A DNA stretch of 64,000 nucleotides, from assembly GCA_002700385.1 (NCBI GenBank), contig PADC01000006.1:496001-560000 (forward strand), given 5' to 3'. Below are positions 48,855 to 58,225 of this stretch, piece by piece. The position numbers and the translations under genes were made by a program. Position 1 is the first letter of the stretch, and every line of letters begins with the position of its first letter. Below the pieces are notes generated by a model that saw nothing but the letters and a program-made list of their open reading frames with translations, was not told the origin of the DNA and searched no databases. This DNA comes from Cycloclasticus sp. (GTDB taxonomy: Bacteria > Pseudomonadota > Gammaproteobacteria > Methylococcales > Cycloclasticaceae).

Positions 48855-50156
48855 TTAAACACCTAACCAATGTGAAACGGCAAGTAAAACAAGGCAATCC
48901 AGCAAGTAAAGCTTTATCGCATAAACAATATTCCATTTAAAGATTTTCTTCCCTGACGCGCCGTAACGCCCCTGTAAAGCCAGATTAATACCGGACAGTG
49001 GACTGGCAGAAACCCCTACGGCCCAAGCCATTAGAAACATAATAGCGAGCAATGTCTGATTTGGTTCAATGTTAACAATCCAATGCCCTACAACCGCTAT
49101 ACTGATCACGGGGTGAACACCCAAAATTGCCAGCAAAAACATACACAGTAGAATGACTGAAGCCACTTCACCGTCAAAATAGTCAAATGGAATAGCGATA
49201 GATAAACCATCGAGTGCAGCGGCTAAACCAGATCCAAAAACACCCGCAATTAAGAACAGTAATAATTCGTTTTTCATTTGCGGCAAGCTGTTCTTCCCAT
49301 GCTGTATAAAGTCACGCCCTCCTTTGGCAGGCCCATTTCTCACCAGCAAAACAGCCATACTCAATAATAACGAACACACCGCAATCAATATAAGTACACT
49401 CACATTCTCGAAGATAGTATGCGCTATGCCTACAAGCACGACCAGACTTGCCGGCAACCACAAAGAGTCAAAATGCATTGGGTAACCTATAAAATTTTTG
49501 ATCAACTCTTTCTTCTCAGACTTCACTTCAAACAACGTAACAAAAAAAGCAACAATAGCCATACTGATCCCCACGCCCATGACTATATGTAAAGATGCTT
49601 CAGGCGTAAAAACCAGAGCTGCTGCGAATGCAGCAAAAAAAGGTGACCAGTGTGCGGCTGACGTGAAGGCCCTGATTAACAGCTTTAATTGATTCATCGA
49701 AAGCTGCGCTTTTTTAACACAGCGATCAGCAACGAGCAGTACTGCCGACACATTGATCACAGAACCAAATAAATGGACCCATAAGTAGGTCCTTAAAAAT
49801 GCCTTAAACCCCGTTGGTAAGGGTTCGATTTTCTCATTTTGCGGTAAGGCAACCAGCTGTAAAAAATGCACGCCTATTAGCATCGTGATCATCAACTGGT
49901 TATTGGAGAAGGCTTTAGCAAAGTCCTTTATTTCACCCGTTTGCCAAGCCACTAACCAGCTCAATATCGCAAGTCCAGCAATCACCAAAAGGGGTTTTTT
50001 CTGTGCTTTTCTTAAACTAAAGAACAAAATACCCCCAGCAACCCAAGTAACGGTTCCTGGAATCCAGTCCAAGTAACCTGGAACCCAGGTGCTTAATACT
50101 GTCAATACAAAACTTAGCATCAACAAGGGGCCTGAGGCCTTTTTTAAGGCGGACAT
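48855..50156 (-). CDS. Multi-pass inner-membrane protein, predicted transporter
   Basis: 433 residues with about ten to twelve hydrophobic segments. It is organised like ion-transporter superfamily permeases: two halves, with ILGVHPVISIAVVGHW and VGVSASPLSGINLALQGRYG near the end resembling re-entrant loop regions. I cannot name a family with confidence. Its ATG abuts the panE stop directly, so it is the last gene of the LLM-dmpD-panE transcript. Given that place it might carry an aromatic intermediate or a carboxylate, but that is a guess from position only. Confidence 0.7.
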   Translation of the reverse strand: MSALKKASGPLLMLSFVLTVLSTWVPGYLDWIPGTVTWVAGGILFFSLRKAQKKPLLVIAGLAILSWLVAWQTGEIKDFAKAFSNNQLMITMLIGVHFLQLVALPQNEKIEPLPTGFKAFLRTYLWVHLFGSVINVSAVLLVADRCVKKAQLSMNQLKLLIRAFTSAAHWSPFFAAFAAALVFTPEASLHIVMGVGISMAIVAFFVTLFEVKSEKKELIKNFIGYPMHFDSLWLPASLVVLVGIAHTIFENVSVLILIAVCSLLLSMAVLLVRNGPAKGGRDFIQHGKNSLPQMKNELLLFLIAGVFGSGLAAALDGLSIAIPFDYFDGEVASVILLCMFLLAILGVHPVISIAVVGHWIVNIEPNQTLLAIMFLMAWAVGVSASPLSGINLALQGRYGASGKKIFKWNIVYAIKLYLLDCLVLLAVSHWLGV

Positions 50157-51122
50157 TTACGCCTTAGGAGTTTCGACTGCTCTGCGCAATAAAGTAGAGA
50201 TAGTTCGATTATAGGGCGCGTCTTTTCCTAACTTTTCACAACCTTTAATAACGACACCACAAATTTCTTCAATTTCTAAGGGTCGGCCTTTTTCACGATC
50301 CACCAACATAGAAGGTTTGATTGAATCAAAGGTCGAAATAAGTTCAAGCATTTCTTCTAAATCATCATTTGATAATTCAACGCCCTGTGATTTCGCAGCC
50401 AACACCGCTTCACTCATTGCGCCTCTGATCAAGGGCTGCAAATCTTCCCTGGGCGTCGCATCACCTGTTTCAATTTCTAACAAGGCACATAACGGGTTTA
50501 ACCCATTGTTAATAATCAATTTCCGCCAGAGTTCTTTGTTGATATCTTTCGACATCTCCGTTGGAATTTTTGCCGCATTAAAACAACGAGCTATCGCCCC
50601 AATTTTTTCTTCCATTTCAGATGAAACAGTCTGATGATTGGGCCATTGGCCTAGAATAACCTGTGCAGGCCCTATTGATTCAACAACTCCTGGCTCAATG
50701 ATATGGGCCCCTATCCGACGAGCAATCCCCCCTAATACTACATGACGGGGTAAGGCCTCACTTAATTGCTGTTCATTATCCACACCATTTTGCAATGACA
50801 ACACAAGAGGAGCCTGACTTTTTGGAAACGACTGCAACCAATTTTTAAGTTGCTCTGCCAGGGCACCCGTTTGCATTCCTTTTAAACAAACAATCACCAC
50901 ATCGACCTGATCAGGGTTTGTCTCATTCAGCCAAGCCTCAAGGCTCAAGGCATCAACCGCTTGATGAAAGTCCAGCTCTGCATGCTTAACCTCTAAACCC
51001 TTCGTTTGCATGGCTTTTAGGTGAGCACCACGAGCTACCAGGGTGACGTCTTCCCCTGCCTGGATTAATCTGGCGGCGTAGTAACAGCCTATACCGCCAG
51101 CGCCAATGATCGCAAACTTCAC
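50157..51122 (-). CDS. 2-dehydropantoate 2-reductase family protein (PanE/ApbA)
   Basis: 321 residues. NADP-binding start KFAIIGAGGIGCYYAARLIQAG, VVIVCLKGMQT, SLQNGVDNEQ and the C-terminal domain with ELWRKLIINNGLNPLCALLEIETG (the catalytic Lys in LWRKLI). Family members reduce ketopantoate in CoA synthesis, but PanE-like paralogues are often found in catabolic clusters where they may reduce other 2-keto acids. Here it sits between dmpD and a transporter-like gene, so a catabolic role or increased CoA supply are both possible. Confidence 0.85.
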   Translation of the reverse strand: MKFAIIGAGGIGCYYAARLIQAGEDVTLVARGAHLKAMQTKGLEVKHAELDFHQAVDALSLEAWLNETNPDQVDVVIVCLKGMQTGALAEQLKNWLQSFPKSQAPLVLSLQNGVDNEQQLSEALPRHVVLGGIARRIGAHIIEPGVVESIGPAQVILGQWPNHQTVSSEMEEKIGAIARCFNAAKIPTEMSKDINKELWRKLIINNGLNPLCALLEIETGDATPREDLQPLIRGAMSEAVLAAKSQGVELSNDDLEEMLELISTFDSIKPSMLVDREKGRPLEIEEICGVVIKGCEKLGKDAPYNRTISTLLRRAVETPKA

Positions 51123-51141
51123 GTCTTATGACCCAACATGA

Positions 51142-51969
51142 CTATTCAGCTTCGGCGAAGAAATCTAAAACCAATTCATTAAAACGTGCGTTTTGTTCAA
51201 TTTGCGTCCAGTGCCCACATTTACCAAACATATGTAATTGAGAATTTGGCAACAAATCAAACAATGTCTTTGATGTAATAGGCGGCACGATTATGTCTTC
51301 ACGGCCATGAATCATCAAGGTTTCATGCTGAATGTTTTTAATATCTTCTGGCGCACTGGCTAATGCCTCAACCCAGCGTTGACGGGGCGCAGGAAACATT
51401 TTACTAAAGGACTCCTGAAACCCAGGTTGCACACTTGCTTTATAACGAAGTTCCGCTAACTCATCCGTCACCAAAGTGCGGTCATAGGCAAATAAATCCA
51501 TCATTTTACGCATATTAGCCACTGAAGGTTCATAACCCCAAACCTCATCCAGCCCTTGAGTCAACTCAAAGCTCACGCCTGCCGCACCCATCAATACAAG
51601 GCGATTCACGCGCTCCGGATGTTTAATTGCAAGTGCTAGTGATAAACCACCACCAAACGAATTACCAATCAGGTGAGCCTTTTCGATGTCCAGCGCATCC
51701 ATTAAATCAATCGCATGCTGAACCCAGTTTTCCATCGAATAATTGTAATCATCTAATCGTTCGGTAAAACCAAAACCAGCCATATCAGGTGCAATCACTC
51801 GATATTTTTCAGCTAATACCGGTATGACTAAACGCCAATTAGCCCAAGCAGTGACGCCAGGCCCTGACCCATGGATCATAAAGACAGGCGTCCCTTCACC
51901 TACATCATGATAATTGGTTTTAAAAGCGCCTGTTTGGATACTGTTTGCAATTTCAGGGTTCGCACTCAT
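51142..51969 (-). CDS. dmpD: 2-hydroxymuconic semialdehyde hydrolase
   Basis: 275 residues, alpha/beta-hydrolase. Hydrolyses the ring-fission product (or its ketone analogues from substituted catechols) to a 2-hydroxydienoate. Oxyanion motif MIHGSGPGVTAWANWRLV, nucleophile Ser in GNSFGGGLSLALAI, acid Asp in HGREDIIVPP and His in GKCGHWTQIEQ. These match DmpD/XylF/TodF types closely, including FPAPRQRWV. Unusually it is not next to dmpC but in the operon downstream of the monooxygenase, 16 bases after the flavin monooxygenase gene. Confidence 0.95.
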   Translation of the reverse strand: MSANPEIANSIQTGAFKTNYHDVGEGTPVFMIHGSGPGVTAWANWRLVIPVLAEKYRVIAPDMAGFGFTERLDDYNYSMENWVQHAIDLMDALDIEKAHLIGNSFGGGLSLALAIKHPERVNRLVLMGAAGVSFELTQGLDEVWGYEPSVANMRKMMDLFAYDRTLVTDELAELRYKASVQPGFQESFSKMFPAPRQRWVEALASAPEDIKNIQHETLMIHGREDIIVPPITSKTLFDLLPNSQLHMFGKCGHWTQIEQNARFNELVLDFFAEAE

Positions 51970-51985
51970 AACTTTCTCCTAAATA

Positions 51986-53014
51986 CTATTTTGATAAACC
52001 GAATTGATGGGCCAGCATTTTATACGACTCTACCCGTGGCTTAAAGGCATGAGTCACATTCACAATCATTAACTCATCCACCTGGTACAACGCGGATATC
52101 TGTTCTAACCTTGACTGACATTCCTCAGGCGTGCCCGTTACCATCGTGGCTAAGGTTTCGTCATAATAAGCCTGATCAGATAACGATAACTGTTTTCTTT
52201 TAACCATGACTTCATCTGGAGAAAAAAAGGCATCCCTGGCACCGTGCCTAAAAGCCTGAACCTTCCAATACGTGTGACTACTAGCGATATATTCCGCTTC
52301 TTCTTTTGAATCCGCACAAATAGCAGCCACCGCGATGATGGCTTCCGGGTTTTCAAGGCTGCCGCCTGTTTGAAAAGCTTTCTTGTAACGCTGAATAATT
52401 TCTGGCGGCCTATCATGAGTGCCAATAAAAAGAGCCAACACAAAACCAGCCCCTAAGACACCCGCGATTTCAGCACTACCATCACTTGAGCCCAGCATCC
52501 AGACAGGGGGGGCACCCACATCACTGGGGACCACAGTAGCGCGACTATAGGGGTGTTCTGAAGGCAAATTATTACTTAAAAAGCCGATTAAATCTTGTGC
52601 CTGACTCGGGTAATACTCGGCAGGAATGGTTTGCCTCGGCGCGGATATCGCGCTCGATGAAATAGGGTTACCCCCCGGAGCGCGCCCAATTCCCAAATCG
52701 ATGCGACCGGGATGAAAAGCTTCTAACATTTTAAAAGTTTCAGCAACTTTAAATGCACTATAATGCGGCAACATCACCCCGCCACTGCCCACACGGATCC
52801 GTTTAGTCGCATGCGCTACATTACTCACCATCAATTCAGGGCAAGGGCTCGCATAACCAGGCGTATCGTGATGTTCTGCAACCCAATAGCGATGATAACC
52901 CGCTTCATCACAGGCCTTAGCGAGTTCAATGGTGGTAAATAAACCACTGGACTCAGGTTGATTATCATGGACGGGGGATTGGTCTAAAACACTTAATTTT
53001 AAATGGCTCATCAT
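51986..53014 (-). CDS. LLM-class flavin-dependent oxidoreductase (MsnO8-like)
   Basis: 342 residues, bacterial luciferase-like TIM-barrel. KLSVLDQSPV opening, YHRYWVAEHHDTPG, RIRVGSGGVMLPHYS and GRIDLGIGRAPGG place it in the MsnO8-like group. These enzymes use FMNH2 or F420; substrates of this group are mostly unknown. First gene after the tmo terminator and probably first of an operon with dmpD, panE-like and the membrane protein. The substrate may be an aromatic or a by-product, but this is inference from position. Second in-frame ATG one codon later could be the true start. Confidence 0.88.
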   Translation of the reverse strand: MMSHLKLSVLDQSPVHDNQPESSGLFTTIELAKACDEAGYHRYWVAEHHDTPGYASPCPELMVSNVAHATKRIRVGSGGVMLPHYSAFKVAETFKMLEAFHPGRIDLGIGRAPGGNPISSSAISAPRQTIPAEYYPSQAQDLIGFLSNNLPSEHPYSRATVVPSDVGAPPVWMLGSSDGSAEIAGVLGAGFVLALFIGTHDRPPEIIQRYKKAFQTGGSLENPEAIIAVAAICADSKEEAEYIASSHTYWKVQAFRHGARDAFFSPDEVMVKRKQLSLSDQAYYDETLATMVTGTPEECQSRLEQISALYQVDELMIVNVTHAFKPRVESYKMLAHQFGLSK

Positions 53015-53035
53015 TTCACTAATTTGGTTTCAAAA

Positions 53036-53062
53036 AATATTTTTACTGCTAGTAAAAATATT
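53036..53062. repeat. AT-rich 11-bp inverted repeat upstream of the flavin monooxygenase gene
   Basis: AATATTTTTAC (53036-53046) and GTAAAAATATT (53052-53062) around a 5-base centre, 22 bases before the gene start. On the minus strand it is followed by T's, so it could be a weak second terminator, but the symmetry and position suit an operator for a repressor. Confidence 0.6.
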
Positions 53063-53102
53063 AGACTTTAGTGATTTATTATATATTTTTATTAACTCGC
53101 AT

Positions 53103-53143
53103 AAATAAAAAAACCGTGCAAATAGCTCATTGCACGGTTTTCA
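53103..53143 (-). terminator. Terminator of the tmo operon
   Basis: Eleven-base-pair stem AAACCGTGCAA (53111-53121) and TTGCACGGTTT (53130-53140), 8-base loop, followed on the minus strand by TTTTTTTATTTAT. It lies 16 bases past the end of the second tmoE reading frame and separates tmoABCDE from the next operon. Confidence 0.92.
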
Positions 53144-53155
53144 TTGTCTAGCGTT

Positions 53156-53659
53156 TTATTTTAAACCCAGTGAATACCTAACAGAGGTCATATAAGCTTT
53201 TGCCTCTTGTGTTGCATCTGGTAAATCTGTCAGTTCTTTACAATAAGCTTCAACAGCTTTATCGGCCAGGGGTAACCACTTGTCTATCCACCTTTGAATA
53301 ATGGCCTCGTTAGCTTCATGATCAAGTGCAAATTCAATCAGTTTTTGTGTTTGGCGTTGATGCCGCTCTGCATCCCGCATTTGCGCATCATTCAATAAAG
53401 ACAATAAAGTATCGCCATTTTCAGCCCCCGCTAGACCGAGTTGTTTCAATACCGCTGCCGAAACAGCTGGCTTTAAGATAACGTCTAGGACAATCGTTGC
53501 TTCTGCCCAATCCCAAGTCACTAACGCTTTTTCTGCCAACTCCCTAAACCCTTGCCATGCTGTTTCATTTTCCCAATATTCTCGCTCTTTTTCTCCGAAA
53601 CCAACGTCCGCCCATGTTTTAGCCAGTTCGCAAGTGCGGTACGCAGTATGTGTCACCAA
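53156..53659 (-). CDS. tmoE: TmoE beta subunit, C-terminal half (frameshifted)
   Basis: 167 residues continuing the beta subunit of the toluene monooxygenase hydroxylase from the point where the first half stops. THTAYRTCELAKTW follows directly on the first half's SADHLRW, exactly as in T4MO TmoE (LRW-LTHTAYRT), and the rest (EKEREYWENETAWQGFREL, DAERHQRQTQKLIEFAL, WIDKWLPLADKA) matches to the end. This frame could start at TTG 53659 or GTG 53656, the latter overlapping the TGA stop of the first half; no good ribosome binding site is visible. Either a separate re-initiated polypeptide, a frameshift product or the wreck of a broken gene. Confidence 0.85.
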   Translation of the reverse strand: MVTHTAYRTCELAKTWADVGFGEKEREYWENETAWQGFRELAEKALVTWDWAEATIVLDVILKPAVSAAVLKQLGLAGAENGDTLLSLLNDAQMRDAERHQRQTQKLIEFALDHEANEAIIQRWIDKWLPLADKAVEAYCKELTDLPDATQEAKAYMTSVRYSLGLK

Positions 53660-54150
53660 CGTAAATGATCAGCCGATTGGTATGTAGCCAAATTAGAGAG
53701 GGTACTTGCCGGTGACATCTGATGAAGGTAAGCAGAGATCATTTGCAAAGCATGAAATAAATAACGGCCTGGCGCATAAAGACGCGCTAAATCAGCCGCC
53801 CATTCTTTCGAAATCATCTGATCATTGCCGCGCTCGCTGAATTGGTTTAACAACCCGGTGACATAAGATTCTTGACCTTCCTGAAGGATGTTGTAGGTTC
53901 TATAAACTAATTGTTCTGGATCTCTAAAGGCATCCCAGTTTTCATGTACTAACGGGCTATTGTTTCGGTACTTTAAGTACCAATCATTCATTTTTGCATC
54001 CTGCCCTATTTCAAATGGTTTGCCTTTATTATTTGTATGAAAATGCAAATTTGAAGTCACTATTTCATACTCACTCGGCCTTTTCCTTTGCTTAGAAAGG
54101 TGTGACCAGGTTTTTAAAGGTTTCAATGTTTCTATTTGCTCATTGCTCAT
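53653..54150 (-). CDS. tmoE: TmoE beta subunit, N-terminal half (frameshifted)
   Basis: 165 residues ending in SADHLRW and a TGA at 53655-53653. Opening ETLKPLKTWSHLSKQRKRPSEYEIV, YRNNSPLVHENWDAFRDPEQLVYRTYN and ISAYLHQMSPASTLSNLATYQ are the TmoE/TouE beta-subunit sequence. The normal protein is about 327 residues; here one base is missing after the Trp codon (TGG-TGA where TGG-GTG is expected). With one G restored a single frame of 331 residues spans 54150-53156. The beta subunit has no metal ligands but forms the (alpha-beta-gamma)2 hydroxylase core, so loss of the join would be expected to abolish the enzyme unless the halves assemble. Confidence 0.87.
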   Translation of the reverse strand: MSNEQIETLKPLKTWSHLSKQRKRPSEYEIVTSNLHFHTNNKGKPFEIGQDAKMNDWYLKYRNNSPLVHENWDAFRDPEQLVYRTYNILQEGQESYVTGLLNQFSERGNDQMISKEWAADLARLYAPGRYLFHALQMISAYLHQMSPASTLSNLATYQSADHLRW

Positions 54151-54165
54151 CATTAATCCCTCTAT

Positions 54166-54480
54166 TTAAAGTGTCTTTTCAAAGTAAAAACGGATTTTTT
54201 CCGACGTTACCTCAATTTGCCCTGCCATAGAGCCTAAATGGATTTCTATTTCATTCATTTGGAAATCACGGCCTAGTGCCTCTTCCATGGATTCCCGAGT
54301 TATTACCAACTCTTGTTCGGCTGAAATCCTAACGTATGCGCCTTTATCATCAACGCTGATGTCTTTATCTGGGTTATCCCATTCGGCGGCTTCAATCGCA
54401 GCTTGCGCAACATCACCACCGTTAAAAATAGGGCCCACTTTATTTTGTTTATAGGCGTCTTTTAATTTTGTCGTTGTCAT
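54166..54480 (-). CDS. tmoD: Toluene monooxygenase effector protein
   Basis: 104 residues, the size of TmoD (103). Cofactor-free effector that binds the hydroxylase and tunes rate and regiospecificity. NKVGPIFNGGDVAQAAIEAAEWDNP and RISAEQELVITRESMEEALGRDF are the family blocks. Fourth gene of the tmo operon, 12-15 bases before tmoE. Confidence 0.93.
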   Translation of the reverse strand: MTTTKLKDAYKQNKVGPIFNGGDVAQAAIEAAEWDNPDKDISVDDKGAYVRISAEQELVITRESMEEALGRDFQMNEIEIHLGSMAGQIEVTSEKIRFYFEKTL

Positions 54481-54523
54481 TATCTGTCTCTTCTTACGAC
54501 TCTTAAGCCGTTAGCTATCGAAT

Positions 54524-54862
54524 TTATGAATGCGCAGTAAACGGTTTAATGCCGTCAATATTGACTAACACATCCTCCCCCTCAATTTTCAGTGGATACT
54601 CCGCTATCATGCAGTCAGTTGGGTTCAACCCCTTCCCATTAGTGCTATCAAATTGCCATAGGTGGGCTTTACACGTCAGAACCTTCCCATCAAACTCACC
54701 TTCAACTAATTCGATTTCCTGATGAGGGCAAATAGCTTGAAATGCTTTTAAATCACCCCCTTCCACCCCTAAAACCAGTACTGAAGTCCCATTTTTTGTT
54801 TCAAAGGCCTCCATATCTCCTTCCCACACATCATCTAAAGTACAAATCTTTTCAAAAGCCAT
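54524..54862 (-). CDS. tmoC: Toluene monooxygenase Rieske ferredoxin
   Basis: 112 residues from ATG 54862, the same length as T4MO TmoC. The frame is open 24 codons upstream inside tmoB, but MAFEKICTLDDVWEGDMEAF is the family start. Rieske cluster ligands Cys45, His47 (CPH), Cys64 and His67 (CKAH), in the same positions as TmoC. Passes electrons from the reductase to the diiron hydroxylase. Confidence 0.95.
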   Translation of the reverse strand: MAFEKICTLDDVWEGDMEAFETKNGTSVLVLGVEGGDLKAFQAICPHQEIELVEGEFDGKVLTCKAHLWQFDSTNGKGLNPTDCMIAEYPLKIEGEDVLVNIDGIKPFTAHS

Positions 54863-54881
54863 CTCTGTGATACCCCTTCTT

Positions 54882-55142
54882 TTAACTGTCGGCGAAGATA
54901 ATATCAAGCGTCTCAGTCGGTCTCCAACCTGCATCAGATACTGTCATGTCACGAGGATAATTTTCAGTGGTATTGTGTAATCTCACACGCATCACTTTTT
55001 CAGGTTGTGCCGCAACTCGGCGACCCACGGAGTGATAAGCACACTTTTCTGCCACCTGATCCATCGTATCTTCTGTATCCACAGAGATTAACTGCATCAC
55101 GAAGTCACCCTCAAAGTTTGAATTAATTGGAAATGCCGCCAT
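54882..55142 (-). CDS. tmoB: Toluene monooxygenase gamma subunit
   Basis: 86 residues, ubiquitin-like fold gamma subunit. MAAFPINSNFEGDFVMQLIS, VDTEDTMDQVAEKCAYHSVGRRV and DAGWRPTETLDIIF match TmoB (84 residues). Second gene of the operon, about 70 bases after tmoA. Confidence 0.94.
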   Translation of the reverse strand: MAAFPINSNFEGDFVMQLISVDTEDTMDQVAEKCAYHSVGRRVAAQPEKVMRVRLHNTTENYPRDMTVSDAGWRPTETLDIIFADS

Positions 55143-55212
55143 TTTTTTCTCCCGTATAAAGCATTTTATTTTTTGTTTTTTTCGTCTTAATCAATGGACA
55201 AATCAGTTTGTA

Positions 55213-56709
55213 TTAAGCTGCACTCACTTGTTTTTTAAATGCTGCTGCCCATGCATAATCATGTGCATCTTTGCCCATTTCACCAGGCCCTAAATTCATA
55301 TAAGCCAGTGTGCCTGGAAGATCCGCCGGTTGAACTTGTCCAGACAGAAAACGATCAATTAAATTTTGATGCTCCTTATACCGCTCTGGATCTTGTTCAA
55401 AACACCAACGATCTGCCTCGGAGCCAAAATGATATAAACGCCCTTCATGCTCTAGGGGATAATCCCGTACATTCCATCCCTCTCCAGGCGTCCCCACAAT
55501 AGGTAGCTGACACATATTGCAAACATATGGCAACGTTTCGGGTAAGGTTAAGTCCTCTCTACCATTATTTAGATTCTCAGTAATCACGTCCCAGCACTTA
55601 CCCCAGGTTTTATTCCATCCTGGGTATTTTTCTTCTAACCACTCTCGATCCTCAGGAGAGGCGCCTGCTGCAGGATTCCACCAAACTGTCGGGCGCCAAT
55701 ACCATACCCCCAAGTGCATTCCATGATGAGTAACATCCAAGTCCTTCGTTAAATCTTCCCAAAACCAGGGCGCATCTAAGCCTAAGTCAGCTAATTGACG
55801 TTCAAATTGAACAATAATCCACTCAACCATAAACTCTTTGAATGACTGACTTCTATGTTCTAACGGCGTGTAATAATCCATAATCGGGCCGGTTAACACT
55901 GAGAACAGTTTCCAAGCTCGCCATATAGAAACATCAACCAATTTTTGAGCTTCTTCTTTTTGTCCATTTTCTATTAAGATTTTTAATGATGGGCCACCTT
56001 GTTGCGCATGACGTGCTTCATCAGTTTGGACACTTGAGATTAAGCTTGCGAATGTATGGTCTCCCGCTTCAGATGCATCGGCAGCGAGACCTAAGAATTG
56101 CATATTGGTAAACCCTGTTTCAAAGCCGAACGTCAACATAATGGAAACTGCAATGGCGTCGCGGCTTAACATGATGTCATCGAAAAACGAACGAGCCGCT
56201 ATGGCAGCCCAATCATTTGTATGCATCGCCTTATGCGCCCAATCCCATTGCCTGCTGCGTTTAATATTAGCGTGAGGGAAAAATAATTGAATTTGGCCAT
56301 GGCGATTTTCATCCAATGTACCAAATGTCGCCATATTACGGTTACCCGGCGCTTTTGAAAAACGGGCCATTCTTGCCTCAGCCAAACTGGCTGCATATTC
56401 ATTTACAGCAATTGCACCATAATGCGCGATCATCGTTGAAATCCAACCCGGATCGGCCCTGTCAACATAGGCATCACGCTCTAAAGCAGCTTTGACAGAA
56501 TAGGCACCGGAGTCTTTTTCCCGCTGAATGCTGACGTATTCGGGATATGTCACCTTATAGGGCTCGTCATAAGTTTCCCAGGCTTCGATAGGAATGCCTC
56601 GGCTTCCGCTCATTTCTTCAGGAAACATCTCCTCTTCAGAAACATAACTATATGTCCAATTGGTGCTACGTGTCAGGTCATACCACTCTTCTCGGGGTAT
56701 TTGATACAT
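55213..56709 (-). CDS. tmoA: Toluene monooxygenase hydroxylase alpha subunit
   Basis: 498 residues, 500 in T4MO, and collinear without gaps through the first 240 residues. Catalytic diiron subunit hydroxylating the aromatic ring. Iron ligands are all present at the T4MO positions: Glu104, Glu134, His137, Glu197, Glu231, His234; Thr201 is also kept. Substrate-pocket residues Ile100, Ala107, Phe176, Phe196 and Phe205 are kept, but position 103 is Asn (Gly in T4MO, Glu in ToMO) and 180 is Met (Ile in T4MO). C-terminal zinc-like CNMCQLP near residue 398. Start has a strong GAGGAGG site. Could use toluene, benzene, phenol or a related ring; regiospecificity cannot be read from sequence. Confidence 0.96.
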   Translation of the reverse strand: MYQIPREEWYDLTRSTNWTYSYVSEEEMFPEEMSGSRGIPIEAWETYDEPYKVTYPEYVSIQREKDSGAYSVKAALERDAYVDRADPGWISTMIAHYGAIAVNEYAASLAEARMARFSKAPGNRNMATFGTLDENRHGQIQLFFPHANIKRSRQWDWAHKAMHTNDWAAIAARSFFDDIMLSRDAIAVSIMLTFGFETGFTNMQFLGLAADASEAGDHTFASLISSVQTDEARHAQQGGPSLKILIENGQKEEAQKLVDVSIWRAWKLFSVLTGPIMDYYTPLEHRSQSFKEFMVEWIIVQFERQLADLGLDAPWFWEDLTKDLDVTHHGMHLGVWYWRPTVWWNPAAGASPEDREWLEEKYPGWNKTWGKCWDVITENLNNGREDLTLPETLPYVCNMCQLPIVGTPGEGWNVRDYPLEHEGRLYHFGSEADRWCFEQDPERYKEHQNLIDRFLSGQVQPADLPGTLAYMNLGPGEMGKDAHDYAWAAAFKKQVSAA

Positions 56710-57433: not shown

Positions 57434-58225
57434 TTATTCTACAAAACGCATAGTAACAGTACCCAAGTTTTGATAACGCACTGAAACGTTATCACCCGCT
57501 TTAACAGCAATGGCTGGAGTAATTGCGCCCGCCATGATAAAGGTTCCAGCTGGAATCACTTCGCCACGCTCTGCTAATAGGTTAGCTAGCATAGCGACAC
57601 TTGCAGCTGGATGACCTAATATAGCTGCACCTGCACCAAGCTCCACCACCTCACCATTAATTTCCATAACAACACCAAGTGTTTTAAGGTCTAGGTCTTC
57701 AACAGGTAGCATGCGGCCGCCAGTTACAAAACGTGATGATGAAGAGTTATCAGCTATCACACTTTTAAGGTCAAATTTAAAATCTTTGTAGCGAGAATCA
57801 ATGATTTCGACGGCTGGTACAATAAAGTCGGTCGCTGATAAGACATCGCCAATATGACAGCCAGGGCCACTAAGCTCTTTTTTCGTCACAAACGCAACTT
57901 CTGCTTCTACCTTTGGGTGAATAAGTTCAGAAATTTTTATTTCTGCACCATCTGGGCAACTAAAATAATCTGCTAAAAATCCATAACAAGGCGTTTCAAC
58001 ACCCATTTGACGCATTTTAGCCATGGATGTTAAGCCCATTTTTAGGCCAACAATTTTGTTACCTCTCGCTTCTTTACGACGGCGTATTTCCCATTGCACA
58101 TCAAGTGCTTCATCCCAAGTGATCTCAGGATAATCATTGGTAATTTTTGTTACTTCTGTGCAGTTTAGCTCTGCATTCTCAAGGTGTTCTGCTAATTTTT
58201 CAATCGTTGCTTTATCTAATGCCAT
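57434..58225 (-). CDS. dmpH: 4-oxalocrotonate decarboxylase
   Basis: 263 residues. Decarboxylates 2-oxo-3-hexenedioate to 2-oxopent-4-enoate with Mg2+. KVEAEVAFVTKKELSGPGCHIGDV and KMGLTSMAKMRQMGV identify it, and it is a paralogue of the hydratase DmpE two genes upstream, with which it forms a complex in known systems. Order F-G-H-I is kept. Confidence 0.93.
   Translation of the reverse strand: MALDKATIEKLAEHLENAELNCTEVTKITNDYPEITWDEALDVQWEIRRRKEARGNKIVGLKMGLTSMAKMRQMGVETPCYGFLADYFSCPDGAEIKISELIHPKVEAEVAFVTKKELSGPGCHIGDVLSATDFIVPAVEIIDSRYKDFKFDLKSVIADNSSSSRFVTGGRMLPVEDLDLKTLGVVMEINGEVVELGAGAAILGHPAASVAMLANLLAERGEVIPAGTFIMAGAITPAIAVKAGDNVSVRYQNLGTVTMRFVE

Follow-up and report, generated by a model that had tools for sequence, protein, structure and literature searches.

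Cycloclasticus is a marine hydrocarbon degrader, and the toluene monooxygenase operon of the strain considered here poses a narrow question. Its tmoE gene, which encodes the hydroxylase beta subunit, is interrupted in the assembly: has the strain lost the gene by mutation, was the missing base lost in sequencing or assembly, or does the gene work in two pieces? The genome comprises 2.52 Mb in 13 contigs, with an estimated completeness of 99.99%, and the locus lies in a 64,000-nucleotide stretch of contig C12, referred to below as the window; coordinates are window positions unless preceded by C12.

On the minus strand the genes run tmoA, tmoB, tmoC, tmoD, split tmoE, luciferase-like oxidoreductase, alpha/beta hydrolase and a ketopantoate-reductase-like gene (Table 1), and the order from tmoA on is matched in a Cycloclasticus MAG (L003), where the MsnO8-family luciferase-like gene likewise follows tmoE directly. 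The likely start of tmoC (MAFEKI) sits within a longer listed frame, 54524-54934. The alpha subunit belongs to the PF02332 family (E 3.2e-70) and matches the ToMO hydroxylase chain 1t0q_A over its full length (498 aa, E 2.9e-292); the gamma subunit TmoB, the Rieske ferredoxin TmoC and the effector TmoD are all present (PF06234, PF00355, PF02406); and the beta halves, once joined, align full length with 1t0q_B (query 2-331, 330 aa, E 3e-135). The components also follow the ToMO order A, B, C, D, E. T4MO (TmoABCDE, PDB 3dhg and others) shares the component families and the fold family, with lower scores than those to ToMO (alpha E 1.5e-256, beta E 1.2e-116). Judged by these matches, the operon encodes a ToMO/T4MO-type enzyme, with toluene/o-xylene monooxygenase as its nearest known system. 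It differs from both known systems in the beta subunit (TmoE/TouE), whose reading frame a one-base deletion interrupts in this assembly only, and from ToMO also in the reductase: no PF00970 gene that could represent TmoF was found in the cluster (48855-56709), and none was seen adjoining it in L003. Electron transfer may use a reductase encoded elsewhere, a candidate being C12:560685-560912, beside phenol-hydroxylase genes.

Table 1. Features of the tmo operon and its downstream neighbours, in window coordinates
Feature	Coordinates	Strand	State or content	Match or comparison
tmoA, hydroxylase alpha subunit	55213..56709	-	intact, 498 aa	94% identical to G007
tmoB	54882..55142	-	intact, 86 aa	PF06234
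tmoC, Rieske ferredoxin	54524..54862	-	intact	PF00355
tmoD, effector protein	54166..54480	-	intact, 104 aa	PF02406
tmoE, whole split gene	54153-53156	-	two overlapping frames	
tmoE, 5' half	53653..54153	-	hydroxylase beta subunit residues 1-166, TGA 53655-53653	PF02332 positions 1-116
One-base deletion site versus eight congeneric genes	53653..53660	-	GTTGGTGA	DNA alignment
tmoE, 3' half	53156..53659	-	frame one base back	PF02332 positions 117-229
MsnO8-family luciferase-like oxidoreductase	51986..53014	-	downstream of tmoE, intact	
Alpha/beta hydrolase resembling meta-cleavage hydrolases	51142..51969	-	downstream, intact	

The first tmoE frame (54153-53653, minus strand) encodes 166 aa and ends DHLRW-TGA, the stop being directly preceded by a GG pair at 53657-53656. 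The second (53659-53156, minus strand) encodes 167 aa from a TTG at 53659 or 166 from a GTG at 53656, and reads VTHTAYRT from 53656. The halves match adjoining parts of the single Pfam profile PF02332, and the peptide across the rejoined junction would be ..ADHLRWVTHTAYR... The split gene's eight best-matching relatives all come from other Cycloclasticus genomes, and in all eight tmoE is intact, with no internal stop. In the DNA alignment with these genes the window gene has one gap only, at the break site, where six relatives carry GGG and two carry GGT in the same register; relative to intact orthologues, tmoE thus has a premature stop produced by a one-base indel, and the break is not a chance effect. 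The initial annotation had described two overlapping frames, the first ending LRW-TGA and the second resuming at VTHTAYRT, and a missing base at the split; the reading frames, the Pfam halves and the single alignment gap confirm each of these points. Its restored frame of 331 residues is right when counted from the second ATG (MSNEQ...), and 332 residues are obtained from the first. The gene is single-copy, no second tmoE having been found in the genome; a search of viral contigs gave no same-site sequences, and a search of the literature gave nothing on tmoE frameshifts.

The age of the break bears on whether it exists in the cell at all. If the missing base is an error of sequencing or assembly, the organism would have an unbroken tmoE and a normally working monooxygenase, and several observations agree with this. 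In both halves of the gene pN is 0.06-0.14 against pS of 0.65-0.88 for most relatives, pN reaching 0.24 in the 3' half for the most distant one (G015). These values indicate that purifying selection acted strongly on both halves up to very recent times, so that the break is either recent or absent from the cell. Nor does tmoE carry an excess of lineage-specific changes relative to its neighbours: compared with the relative G007, tmoE has 12 here versus 6 and tmoA 7 versus 1, and most neighbouring genes lean the same way, which points to a somewhat faster lineage and not to relaxed constraint on tmoE. (In the MhpD-like hydratase at 57434-58225 the counts are 5 here versus 29 in G007, so that G007 may carry another paralogue at this place, or a gene that replaced the original.) No further decay was found within the operon: tmoA to tmoD and the downstream genes are unbroken and collinear with those of relatives. 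The initial annotation had also found the rest of the operon intact, and its view of the break as a fresh event is in line with both this intactness and the selection on the two halves. A very recent deletion and an error fit the data on selection and age equally well.

What separates the two, to a modest degree, is a frameshift census in which 400 kb of this genome were compared with 2.4 Mb of G007, covering ~296 genes matched over at least 80% of their length and ~100,000 residues. Among these conserved genes an isolated frameshift of one base occurs in tmoE alone, so the assembly shows no systematic indel problem and is not prone to such errors. The other frameshifts are confined to two adjacent, visibly decaying copper-related genes outside the window (C12 ~436300-438640, L098/L099 region), a multicopper-oxidase-like gene of ~570 aa and a gene of ~198 aa, both of which are shifted by one base when compared with G007, the smaller one having an in-frame stop as well; the pair is probably a decaying locus. 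A hemH-like (ferrochelatase) fragment of 57 residues with an in-frame stop, also outside the window (C12 ~353881-354052, L095), is an apparent remnant, and these lesions and those of the copper genes look like true decay, a further point in favour of a real lesion in tmoE. Several further "stop" flags of the census were discarded as artefacts: upstream extensions of reading frames, a stop at a C-terminal end, an rRNA-like spurious frame and one probable spurious frame. By the same test G007 shows two frameshifts.

The 400 kb contain ~1,000 A/T runs of at least six bases and ~1,760 G3 runs, and the tmoE lesion sits in a G run of only two to three bases. That longer homopolymers are spared and so short a run is hit is less expected of homopolymer-sensitive error, and modestly favours a real mutation. 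The preference is only modest because a draft assembly may well retain an error in every ~300 kb of coding sequence, and a few such leftovers would likewise produce a lone lesion. Weighing these points, we consider that tmoE has, somewhat more probably than otherwise, suffered a real and recent one-base loss-of-function deletion in this strain; sequencing or assembly error is a close rival, a substantial possibility of lesser probability. The deletion is seen directly in the assembly, as are the intact genes of relatives and the selection that acted up to recently; that it also lies in the DNA of the cell we infer as part of the best explanation.

Under a real deletion, translation of tmoE would stop at residue 166, in the middle of a predicted helix. 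The hydroxylase of ToMO and T4MO is an (alpha-beta-gamma)2 assembly for which the beta subunit is required; deprived of a full-length beta subunit, the enzyme of this strain would very probably be inactive and the monooxygenase activity lost, with tmoA to tmoD and the downstream genes still intact. An intact second diiron monooxygenase alpha/beta pair, of the phenol-hydroxylase type, lies ~12 kb away and may make the loss tolerable. Both tmoA and tmoE are absent from five of ten near-complete genomes of the genus, which argues that the operon is dispensable in Cycloclasticus; this and the intact second pair speak for a real deletion. A survey describes Cycloclasticus variants as differing in their toluene pathways, one having a toluene monooxygenase together with a toluene 2-monooxygenase (PMC12510462). 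As seen in the assembly, the case resembles a pseudogene made by a single-base frameshift in its one-base deletion, premature stop, recently constrained sequence and intact orthologues in sister species.

A functional split, in which re-initiation at the GTG or TTG over the stop or a -1 ribosome shift would still give a working beta subunit, is improbable. The TGA does overlap candidate GTG and TTG starts, a geometry known in coupled genes generally. However, none of the eight relatives shares the split, and the pairing with the anti-Shine-Dalgarno core upstream of the break amounts to -1.7 kcal/mol, which falls short even of the median for random sequence (-2.4), whereas the tmoE start has -6.3 and tmoA -12.0. 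A value of -8.7 kcal/mol obtained with a longer 16S tail was rejected as a ribosome-binding site, since the core alone gives -1.7; the surplus is put down to TGATC pairing with GAUCA outside the core. Coupled re-initiation was accordingly discarded for want of conservation and of a Shine-Dalgarno sequence. Programmed -1 frameshifting was also discarded: as had been noted at the outset, the site has no slippery heptamer (ACGTTGG is not X-XXY-YYZ), no RNA structure was found downstream of the break (z +1.75), and the region has no Rfam match. The junction, moreover, falls inside a helix predicted at residues 157-176, in a low-confidence model of an intact relative (pLDDT 39.8) that was used for the helix only. 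Together, the missing slippery site, RNA structure and Shine-Dalgarno sequence, the mid-helix break and its absence from relatives make a working split unlikely. That in this strain alone stop-start coupling at TTGGTGA lets the two halves be translated separately into a working subunit is a shade less probable still. Finally, a mixed population or phase-variable site with both forms present would suit a short G run, but classical phase-variable tracts are far longer than two to three G, and three G are retained in most relatives, so that we find it scarcely credible. Of the three outcomes that the initial annotation left open, error and recent inactivation stand, with the census modestly for inactivation, and the working split has become unlikely.

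The tmoE case is therefore an ordinary one: the gene was either broken by a recent mutation or misread in sequencing, nothing points to a special mechanism, and neither outcome alters the understanding of the enzyme family. If the break is an error, the tmoE record of this strain needs a flag. If it is real, automated annotation would wrongly credit the strain with toluene oxidation via this enzyme, and the locus would capture the opening step in the loss of a catabolic pathway with a patchy distribution among marine Cycloclasticus.
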